Shown: piece after piece, positions 7,217 through 53,028 of the stretch
Layout of the letters: every line of letters starts with the position of its first letter
Position numbering within the stretch: position 1 is the stretch's first letter
Source of the DNA: Pseudomonadota bacterium
Lineage (GTDB): Bacteria > Pseudomonadota > Alphaproteobacteria > Rickettsiales > SXRF01
Direction: 5' to 3'
Assembly (NCBI GenBank): GCA_963205195.1
Contig: CAUJHR010000011.1
Span: 1-64,000 of the forward strand
DNA length: 64,000 nt
Position numbers and translations under genes: made by a program
The notes under the pieces: model-generated
What the model was told of the DNA's origin: nothing
The model's input: only the letters and a program-made list of their open reading frames with translations
Databases searched by the model: none

Positions 7217-8182
7217 ATGGTTATAAAACTCCCTGATAATTTACAGGATGCAATTGATTTTGTCGCAAAATCCTTAACCGAGCGCATGGATGAGCTGCTG
7301 CGCGTTCCTGAGACTGACGGCACTACTGTAGTTGCGATAAATTCGCAGGCGGCAACTTCACATGATACGCGGGTTGTAAAAGAAGATACAATAGTTGAAG
7401 CCATGCGCTACAGCGCGCTGGGCGGCGGCAAGCGCCTGCGCCCATTCCTTACTATCTGTGCCAGCAGCTTGTTTGGCGTAAGTATGGATTCGGCTTTGGA
7501 AACTGCGGCAGCGATTGAGTTCATACATACCTATTCTCTTATGCACGATGACTTGCCGGCAATGGATAATGACGACCTGCGCCGTGGCAAGCCAACTTCT
7601 CATAAGGTATTTGGTGAAGCTGCCGCTATCCTTGCAGGTGATGGCTTGCTAACTTATGCCTTCCAGATACTTGCCAATCAGAAAACCCATGCTGACCCTG
7701 CTGTGCGTTGTGAATTAATAACAGCTCTGGCTCAGGCTTCAGGCAGTTGGGGCATGGTCGGCGGGCAGATGATGGATTTGCAATCAGAAAACAAGCAGCT
7801 ATCAGTTGATGAGATTATCAGGCTGCAGCGTTTAAAAACCGGGGAGCTGTTCGCGGTATCCTGTGAAGCGGGGGCGATACTTGGTAAAGCGCCGGGAATG
7901 ATGCGTAAGCTAATGCGTGCCTATGCCCATGATATGGGGCTTGCTTTCCAGATCACTGACGACCTTCTGGACGTTGAGGGAACCCGCACCCAGACCGGAA
8001 AAGGTGTGCGTAAAGATAAGATCGCAGGCAAAGCCACGCTGGTTTCAAGCATGGGTGTTGAGCGTGCGCGTGAGCATGCACAGATACTTATACGTCAGGC
8101 TATTTCCTATCTCGATGTGTTCGATAAAAAAGCTGACAATCTCCGCGACCTTGCGGAATTCGTTATTTCGCGCAAATCCTGA
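7217..8182 (+). CDS. ispA: Polyprenyl synthetase (farnesyl/geranylgeranyl diphosphate synthase)
   Basis: Condenses isopentenyl diphosphate with allylic diphosphates to make C15 (or C20) prenyl diphosphates for quinones, undecaprenyl carrier and heme O/A. The 321 residues contain the first aspartate-rich motif DDLPAMDNDD with RRGKPTSHK, the upstream GGGKRLRPFL and the second aspartate-rich motif FQITDDLLDVEG. About 25 residues (ETDGTTVVAINSQAATSH...) are inserted near residues 32-57, before the first conserved block, compared with typical IspA. Chain length cannot be fixed by eye. Transcribed with xseB. Confidence 0.93.
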   Translation: MVIKLPDNLQDAIDFVAKSLTERMDELLRVPETDGTTVVAINSQAATSHDTRVVKEDTIVEAMRYSALGGGKRLRPFLTICASSLFGVSMDSALETAAAIEFIHTYSLMHDDLPAMDNDDLRRGKPTSHKVFGEAAAILAGDGLLTYAFQILANQKTHADPAVRCELITALAQASGSWGMVGGQMMDLQSENKQLSVDEIIRLQRLKTGELFAVSCEAGAILGKAPGMMRKLMRAYAHDMGLAFQITDDLLDVEGTRTQTGKGVRKDKIAGKATLVSSMGVERAREHAQILIRQAISYLDVFDKKADNLRDLAEFVISRKS

Positions 8183-51425: not shown

Positions 51426-51782
<357 letters not shown>

Positions 51783-51891: not shown

Positions 51892-51950
51892 TTTTTTATA
51901 TATTAATGACATATTATTTATGTATTAGAGATATATTTGTAAGGAATATC

Positions 51951-52418
51951 ATGCCTACCCCCAATAAGGAAATTATTAAGCACCTCAATAATGTGCTTAC
52001 TAGCAAGCTTACCGTAATAAATCAGTATTTTCTCCATGCCCGTATGATGAAGCATATGGGTTATATGCGGCTTGCTGATTATGAGTATAAGGAATCAATA
52101 CAGCAGATGAAATATGCCGATAAGCTTGTTGAAAAGGTATTATCTTTAAGCGGTGTGCCTAATATGCAGGATCAGGCCAAATTAAATATTGGCACCACTG
52201 TTGAAGAAATACTGAAATATGACCTTGATGCCGGTAAGGTTTCGGTAAATAATATCAAAGCGGCAATTGAAGCCTGTATAAATGCCAATGATTCGGGAAA
52301 TACTGATATATTAAGCAGCATACTGGAAAATGAAGAGGAACATATATCATTTGTTGCCTCCCAGCTTAATTTGATTGACACATTAGGTTTGCCTAAGTAT
52401 CTGCAATCCCACGCTTGA
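51951..52418 (+). CDS. bfr: Bacterioferritin, heme-binding subunit with degenerate ferroxidase site
   Basis: An iron-storage family protein, 155 residues, start ATG 51951 supported by AAGGA five bases upstream. Alignment by eye to E. coli Bfr (+1 offset) shows that the heme ligand Met53 (E. coli Met52) and Tyr26 are kept. Of the ferroxidase ligands, E18 is K19, E51 is Q52, H54 is Y55 and E94 is G95; only E128 and H131 remain. The subunit therefore probably cannot oxidise iron by itself. Two-subunit bacterioferritins of Magnetospirillum and Pseudomonas have one such heme subunit and one with an intact center, so a partner gene is expected elsewhere. Confidence 0.88.
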   Translation: MPTPNKEIIKHLNNVLTSKLTVINQYFLHARMMKHMGYMRLADYEYKESIQQMKYADKLVEKVLSLSGVPNMQDQAKLNIGTTVEEILKYDLDAGKVSVNNIKAAIEACINANDSGNTDILSSILENEEEHISFVASQLNLIDTLGLPKYLQSHA

Positions 52419-52446: not shown

Positions 52447-53028
52447 ATGCTGCGTAAAATTTTTCTTCCACTGACTTTAATTTTTTTAATATCATTTATT
52501 TCTGGAGCAATTGTAATGGCAAAATCTAAACCCGCAAAGGCTGCGGAAAACCCACTAGAAAATACCTTGTATCTTGACCTGAAAGATGGCCGCGTTGTTA
52601 TAGAGATGCGTCCCGACCTTGCCCCTAAGCATGTAAAGCGCATTAAAGAACTGGTACGCCAGGGATTTTATAATGGGGTGGTTTTCCACCGTGTAATTGA
52701 TGGCTTCATGGCGCAGACCGGTGACCCAACAGGCACAGGCATGGGTGGCTCTGGACAGAAACTTAAAGCTGAGTTCAGCAAAGAGCCGCATATGCGCGGT
52801 GCTGTTTCAATGGCACGCGCAGCTGACCCAAACAGTGCTGACAGCCAATTCTTTATTTGCCTTGCTGAAGCAAGTTATTTAAATGGACAATATACCTATT
52901 GGGGTAAGGTGGTAAAGGGCATGGAATTTGTCGATCATATCAAAAAAGGCGACAAATATAATAACGGCTCGGTTACCGATCCCGACAAGATAATTAAAAT
53001 TCAAGTTGCCGCTGATGTGAAGGAATAA
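52447..53028 (+). CDS. ppiB: Cyclophilin-type peptidyl-prolyl cis-trans isomerase
   Basis: Catalyses cis-trans isomerisation of prolyl bonds. N-terminal ~30 residues form a membrane anchor or signal (KIFLPLTLIFLISFISGAIVM), so it is probably periplasmic. The cyclophilin fold is complete: GFYNGVVFHRVIDGFMAQTGDPTGTGMGGSG, MRGAVSMARAADPNSADSQFFICL, YLNGQYTYWGKVVKGMEFVDHI. The Trp of the drug-binding site is replaced by Tyr (YTYWGKV). The terminator follows 10 bases after the stop. It is separate from bfr by 28 bases. Confidence 0.94.
   Translation: MLRKIFLPLTLIFLISFISGAIVMAKSKPAKAAENPLENTLYLDLKDGRVVIEMRPDLAPKHVKRIKELVRQGFYNGVVFHRVIDGFMAQTGDPTGTGMGGSGQKLKAEFSKEPHMRGAVSMARAADPNSADSQFFICLAEASYLNGQYTYWGKVVKGMEFVDHIKKGDKYNNGSVTDPDKIIKIQVAADVKE

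Follow-up and report, generated by a model that had tools for sequence, protein, structure and literature searches.

A bacterioferritin that kept its heme site and lost its ferroxidase center: a probable partnerless heme protein

A bacterioferritin (Bfr) in which the heme ligand persists and most of the ferroxidase ligands are gone raises the question of whether it serves as one half of a two-subunit system, as a passive iron cage, or as a heme protein in its own right. Such a gene, bfr, lies in the window, that is, the whole stretch of 64,000 nucleotides analyzed here (Table 1). Its product, P0001, is a member of the bacterioferritin family, matching TIGR00754 with 172 bits against a curated cut-off of 125.55, and Pfam Ferritin with 98 bits. 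The AlphaFold2 (AF2) monomer model has a mean pLDDT of 95.3 and superposes on P. aeruginosa BfrB with a TM of 0.95 and an rmsd of 0.7 Å, helix E included. A second in-frame ATG is present upstream, at 51906; homologues begin at 51951, with AAGGAA just 5' of this codon. The gene is followed by an open reading frame that we take, from its sequence, to encode a peptidyl-prolyl isomerase (ppi); in the window genus, 28 bases separate the bfr stop from the ppi ATG, with no overlap.

Table 1. Coordinates of the bfr locus and of the codons for functional residues of P0001
Feature	Position	Strand	Basis
bfr, putatively ferroxidase-deficient, heme-ligand-retaining bacterioferritin (P0001), 155 aa	51951..52418	+	TIGR00754, Pfam Ferritin, AF2 model
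Shine-Dalgarno-like AAGGAA ahead of the bfr ATG at 51951	51941..51946	+	read in sequence
Lys19 codon (E. coli Glu18, ferroxidase ligand, lost)	52005..52007	+	sequence, alignment
Tyr26 codon (E. coli Tyr25, kept)	52026..52028	+	sequence, alignment
Gln52 codon (E. coli Glu51, bridging ligand, lost)	52104..52106	+	sequence, alignment
Met53 codon (E. coli Met52, axial heme ligand, kept)	52107..52109	+	sequence, alignment
Tyr55 codon (E. coli His54, lost)	52113..52115	+	sequence, alignment
Gly95 codon (E. coli Glu94, lost)	52233..52235	+	sequence, alignment
Glu128 codon (E. coli Glu127, kept)	52332..52334	+	sequence, alignment
His131 codon (E. coli His130, kept)	52341..52343	+	sequence, alignment
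glnB (PII), divergent neighbor upstream of bfr	51426..51764	-	sequence; synteny
Presumed peptidyl-prolyl isomerase (ppi), conserved downstream of bfr, N-terminal signal-like stretch	52447..53028	+	sequence

Residue numbers in P0001 are those of E. coli Bfr plus one. The phmmer alignment of P0001 with P. aeruginosa BfrB has no gaps and a constant offset of +1 (query 5-154 against chain 4-153), and a shift of register that would restore the ligands is ruled out by ungapped alignments over the whole chain; the preliminary description had named such a check, and the ligands stay absent after it. At the six ferroxidase positions (E18, E51, H54, E94, E127, and H130), P0001 has K, Q, Y, G, E, and H, and thus does not carry the six-ligand set. 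Alignment with E. coli Bfr bears out the preliminary description both in the four replacements (K19, Q52, Y55, and G95) and in the retention of Met53, Tyr26, Glu128, and His131. The inner-surface iron site is altered as well (H46 to K and D50 to Q), and Met52 and the heme-pocket residues L19, I22, N23, F26, Y45, I49, and K53 are all present.

This condition extends over most of the family of the window genome, where bfr was found in 13 of 16 genomes, as 14 genes, most of these relatives probably being metagenome bins. Where the flanks can be read, glnB and/or the isomerase adjoin the gene, forming a syntenic glnB-bfr-ppi locus. Twelve of the 14 genes lack between two and five ferroxidase ligands, with diverse replacements, and all 12 keep Met52 and Tyr25. 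At the six positions they read KQYGEH (the window), KQYEAH, QQHEEH, GQNQQH, KIHSQH, KAHAQH (three genes), KIHCQH, AEHSAR, and KAHLQR (two genes), ranging from four ligands kept in L006 to H130 alone in L009. The genus g3, represented by two genomes, has all six ligands and is the only genus of the family with an intact center. When the functional columns are masked, the tree groups the deficient genes in a single clade (96/89) with g3 as its sister (95/69), which suggests that a single ferroxidase loss explains the family and that the sites drifted apart afterwards. The branches of the deficient genes are longer than those of g3, indicating weaker constraint in the former. Nevertheless, dN/dS is below 1 in the three pairs compared (0.15 for L001/L005, 0.27 for L020/L023, and 0.36 for L015/L020), with dS partly saturated at genus distance, and these values point to purifying selection on the family bfr; 33 columns, among them most of the heme pocket, are invariant across the 14 sequences, and the 12 deficient genes have no internal stops.

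In a comparison set outside the family, 68 of 81 Bfrs (80 named loci) possess all six ligands and Met52, 11 deviate only at position 127, and one lacks only Met52; the protein of Pseudomonas sp. M47T1 (L126), with three ligands gone, is the sole such case. Against these counts, and with the deficient family genes having lost two to five ligands and always kept Met52, the ligand loss in the window Bfr goes beyond chance drift. Thr at position 127 with the rest intact (EEHETH; L066, L067, L077, L119, L123, L125, L127, L133, L137, L138, and L140) is a recurrent single-ligand variant of alpha- and betaproteobacterial Bfrs. Two distant Bfr-like proteins of another family, f16 (L209 and L210, both in genome G135), lack the ferroxidase and the heme residues (LEYSED, Arg52).

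The preliminary description had predicted a second bfr gene with an intact center elsewhere in the genome. The window genome (1,882,860 bases, or 1.88 Mb, in 24 contigs; estimated completeness 100%) was searched as a whole with P0001, Pfam Ferritin, and TIGR00754, and the prediction failed: no second Bfr was found, and, sub-threshold noise apart, the only other ferritin-family gene encodes one canonical Dps (L003, 160 aa) with the usual Dps motifs. A PF00210 match on contig C18 was weak (E 0.07), contained an internal stop, and was rejected, the listed open reading frames there encoding nothing ferritin-like. Nine other ferroxidase-deficient genomes of the family have one Bfr each and a further one, G013, has two, both deficient; no ferroxidase Bfr or Ftn partner was found in any of them, the extra ferritin-like matches being Dps, in two genomes a 141-aa mini-Bfr-like protein, and in one a longer Dps-like protein. 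The 141-aa proteins (L050:1483-1908 in G002 and L048:1492-1917 in G012) carry the full Glu/His motif set, are not encoded in the window genome, and are perhaps kin of the 139-residue Bfr in PDB 9qq4. The two distinct bfr genes of G013 (L020 and L023) may reflect duplication or a mixed bin, this genome being 87% complete with 4% contamination, and G004 (family f1, genus g2, 91% complete) has no Ferritin-family match, neither Bfr nor Dps.

These searches bear directly on the proposal that P0001 is the heme subunit of a hetero-bacterioferritin of the Magnetospirillum, Shewanella, or Pseudomonas type, with the ferroxidase subunit encoded elsewhere. Its residue pattern equals that of M. gryphiswaldense Bfr2, in which the heme ligand is kept and the ferroxidase center mutated. 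However, the absence of a second Bfr or Ftn, from a genome rated complete and from the other deficient genomes, and the bifunctional homo-Bfrs that relatives have at the same locus largely refute this proposal, to which we leave hardly any probability. Thus, one defining feature of such a subunit, Met52 together with lost ferroxidase ligands, is present, and the other, a second, heme-free bfr with an intact ferroxidase center (FC), is missing. As defining features of both classes are missing, P0001 appears to be neither a hetero-bacterioferritin subunit nor a ferroxidase-competent bacterioferritin, and to belong to the family by descent and by its heme site.

The loss also involves the electron donor. 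In g3, bfd lies just upstream of bfr, in the glnB-bfr gap (G005:C36:7360-7503; bfr at 7646), and bfd beside bfr is common to many other families of the order. It was detected in none of the 11 deficient genomes, in which the HMM gave no match over the family cut-off and an IUPAC DNA motif none in frame; the window genome has no PF04324 match at E<=1 and the Bfd DNA motif only out of frame (109 bases), so a cognate Bfd was not found there. A hidden Bfd was rejected as well, the motif being in frame only in the two g3 genomes and all other matches having lengths not divisible by three. In the order as a whole, 17 of the 27 intact-center, Met52-bearing genes are accompanied by bfd, against none of the 11 deficient genomes (Fisher P 0.0003, relatedness ignored), and within the family the counts are two of two intact versus 0 of 11 deficient genomes (P 0.013). 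The absence of bfd proves nothing by itself, since the gene is likewise undetected near 10 of the 27 intact-center Bfrs. The Bfr-Bfd interface is formed by L68 and E81, although Q81 is compatible with Bfd in Acinetobacter and Brucella (PMC13136788). E81 occurs in all of the 80 named Bfrs and in 16 of the 17 Bfrs linked to bfd, but in only three of the 12 deficient genes, and L68 is kept in two of those 12.

Ferrochelatase is encoded in 15 of the 16 family genomes, so the cells can synthesize heme. Heme-pocket retention was scored at eight positions (19, 22, 23, 26, 45, 49, 52, and 53), which we chose from general knowledge of Bfr structures. Over the 12 deficient genes, the ancestral residue is kept at 95% in the heme pocket, at 32% among the ferroxidase ligands, and at 73% in other conserved sites; site permutation gives P 0.001 for ferroxidase loss and P 0.017 for heme retention, the site counts being phylogenetically non-independent.

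The reading that we favor, and hold to be rather probable, is that P0001 is a homomeric, ferroxidase-null, heme-binding Bfr that most likely serves to buffer heme or in redox chemistry. The ancestor would have been bifunctional, with a ferroxidase center, the Met52 heme site, and bfd next door. The center would then have been lost once inside the family, along with bfd and the Bfd-docking surface, the two-fold heme pocket remaining under selection. The subunit dimer would still form, with one heme clamped between two Met53 residues. The loss of E18, E51, H54, and E94 would leave no diiron center to bind and oxidize Fe(II), and that of Bfd no dedicated electron donor for mobilization of the core, while Dps could take over iron and peroxide detoxification in the window genome. 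Heme binding and nil ferroxidase activity are thus predicted for P0001. Since the heme site is the conserved part, holding heme or heme redox would be the remaining function; more tentatively, its job might be heme buffering or storage, or one-electron redox via the bis-Met heme, iron oxidation being left to Dps. The preliminary description had offered a heme carrier without iron oxidation as its fallback, and the kept pocket, together with the loss of ferroxidase ligands, bfd, and docking residues, favors it.

The C-terminal end of the protein differs among genera and matters for the alternatives. In g4, g6, and g7, seven genes are devoid of the C-terminal helix E region, so that the Bfrs of these genera may form no normal 24-mer cage. 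In L010, L014, L015, L019, and L023 of the same genera, the bfr stop and the ppi start overlap as ATGA, with the Shine-Dalgarno sequence inside the bfr tail; in L012 and L020, both also devoid of the helix E region, the overlap is not seen or the junction is cut. The KECA/KDCA tails were considered as a conserved cysteine motif and discarded, as the AAGGA and ATG belonging to the downstream gene fall at the same bases, and the tails seem to reflect overlap with its ribosome-binding site instead of a function.

A passive homomeric cage, comparable to L chains, could store iron oxidized elsewhere (by Dps, by H2O2, or spontaneously), with the heme passing electrons from another reductant for release. 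The fold and helix E of the modeled window protein appear intact, and vertebrate L ferritin works without a center in mixed cages; nevertheless, bfd, the Bfd-docking residues and, in the window genus, the inner-surface ligands H46 and D50 have been lost, and the lack of the helix E region in other genera adds to making this explanation unlikely. Less probable still, bfr could be a decaying gene whose reading frame persists through cotranscription and translational coupling with the downstream isomerase. The long branches and the ATGA overlap in the g4, g6, and g7 members except L012 would fit such a decay, whereas the dN/dS values, the invariant columns, the absence of internal stops, and the spacer in the window genus argue against it. 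Finally, Lys, Gln, and Tyr could have joined the persisting Glu128 and His131 in a new mononuclear center with other chemistry. This we regard as very improbable: the replacements vary by genus (K, Q, G, or A at 18; Q, I, or A at 51; G, Q, S, A, C, or L at 94; A or Q at 127), and with L009 retaining a single ligand, no alternative ligand set seems to be conserved.

The opposite loss occurs in another family of the same order, f20. Here, 30 Bfrs of the genera g48 and g50 (L175-L180, L182-L202, L205, L208, and L211) retain 99% of the ferroxidase ligands but only 20% of the heme-pocket residues, with Met52 replaced by Leu, Val, or Phe and with N23, Y45, K53, and D56 changed; no bfd was found for them. 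The g49 members of f20 (L181, L203, L204, and L207) keep both sites. One g50 genome (G112) encodes a DsbA whose clear best match is PDB 6EEZ, the alpha-DsbA2 of Wolbachia pipientis (PMC6450060); this places g50 within or very close to Wolbachia and identifies the order as Rickettsiales. Wolbachia Bfr was earlier reported to have all ferroxidase residues (PMC2759286). The g48 and g50 Bfrs are probably heme-free, which is at odds with the heme storage ascribed in the literature to Wolbachia bacterioferritin (PMC10195089). One order thus holds three states: bifunctional ancestral, ferroxidase-only, and heme-only. Taken together, the family Bfr may be a dedicated heme protein (a store, a carrier, or a b-type electron mediator), probably lacking a normal cage in some genera, and the Bfr of the Wolbachia-like sister lineage a heme-free ferritin derived from the same ancestral protein; we give this natural double dissociation somewhat less than an even chance.

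The role of Bfr heme beyond accepting Bfd electrons for iron release is debated, and a further role has been proposed (PMC10946800). A heme pocket kept after the loss of both the ferroxidase center and Bfd would imply that the heme serves a selectable function apart from iron storage, one that can be tested directly on a single small protein, and the reverse loss in the Wolbachia-like lineage would be a complementary natural experiment that bears on the heme-storage claims (PMC10195089). A literature search of incomplete coverage returned no published Bfr that is at once partnerless, Bfd-less, ferroxidase-less, and heme-only, and such a protein may therefore be new.

Among known systems, P. 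aeruginosa BfrB and E. coli Bfr are the closest solved structures to P0001, with 44-47% identity, a TM of 0.95, and a shared heme pocket; however, they have six ligands and a cognate Bfd, whereas P0001 has lost four ligands and Bfd, and the L68/E81 pair is mostly gone. Vertebrate L ferritin is likewise a ferroxidase-null subunit with Lys in the former diiron site, but it is heme-free and works in mixed cages with the H chain. M. gryphiswaldense Bfr2 and S. oneidensis SoBfr2 resemble P0001 in having the Bfr fold with Met52 kept and the ferroxidase ligands substituted (PMC6529640, PMC12120770); they differ in possessing a gene for a heme-free ferroxidase partner, on which iron storage depends, while P0001 has neither partner nor Bfd. 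The Wolbachia-type Bfr of g50 and g48 is similar to the window Bfr in belonging to the same order, in being the single Bfr, and in having no Bfd detected, and it is its opposite in what was lost, with the ferroxidase center intact and Met52 and the heme pocket gone.
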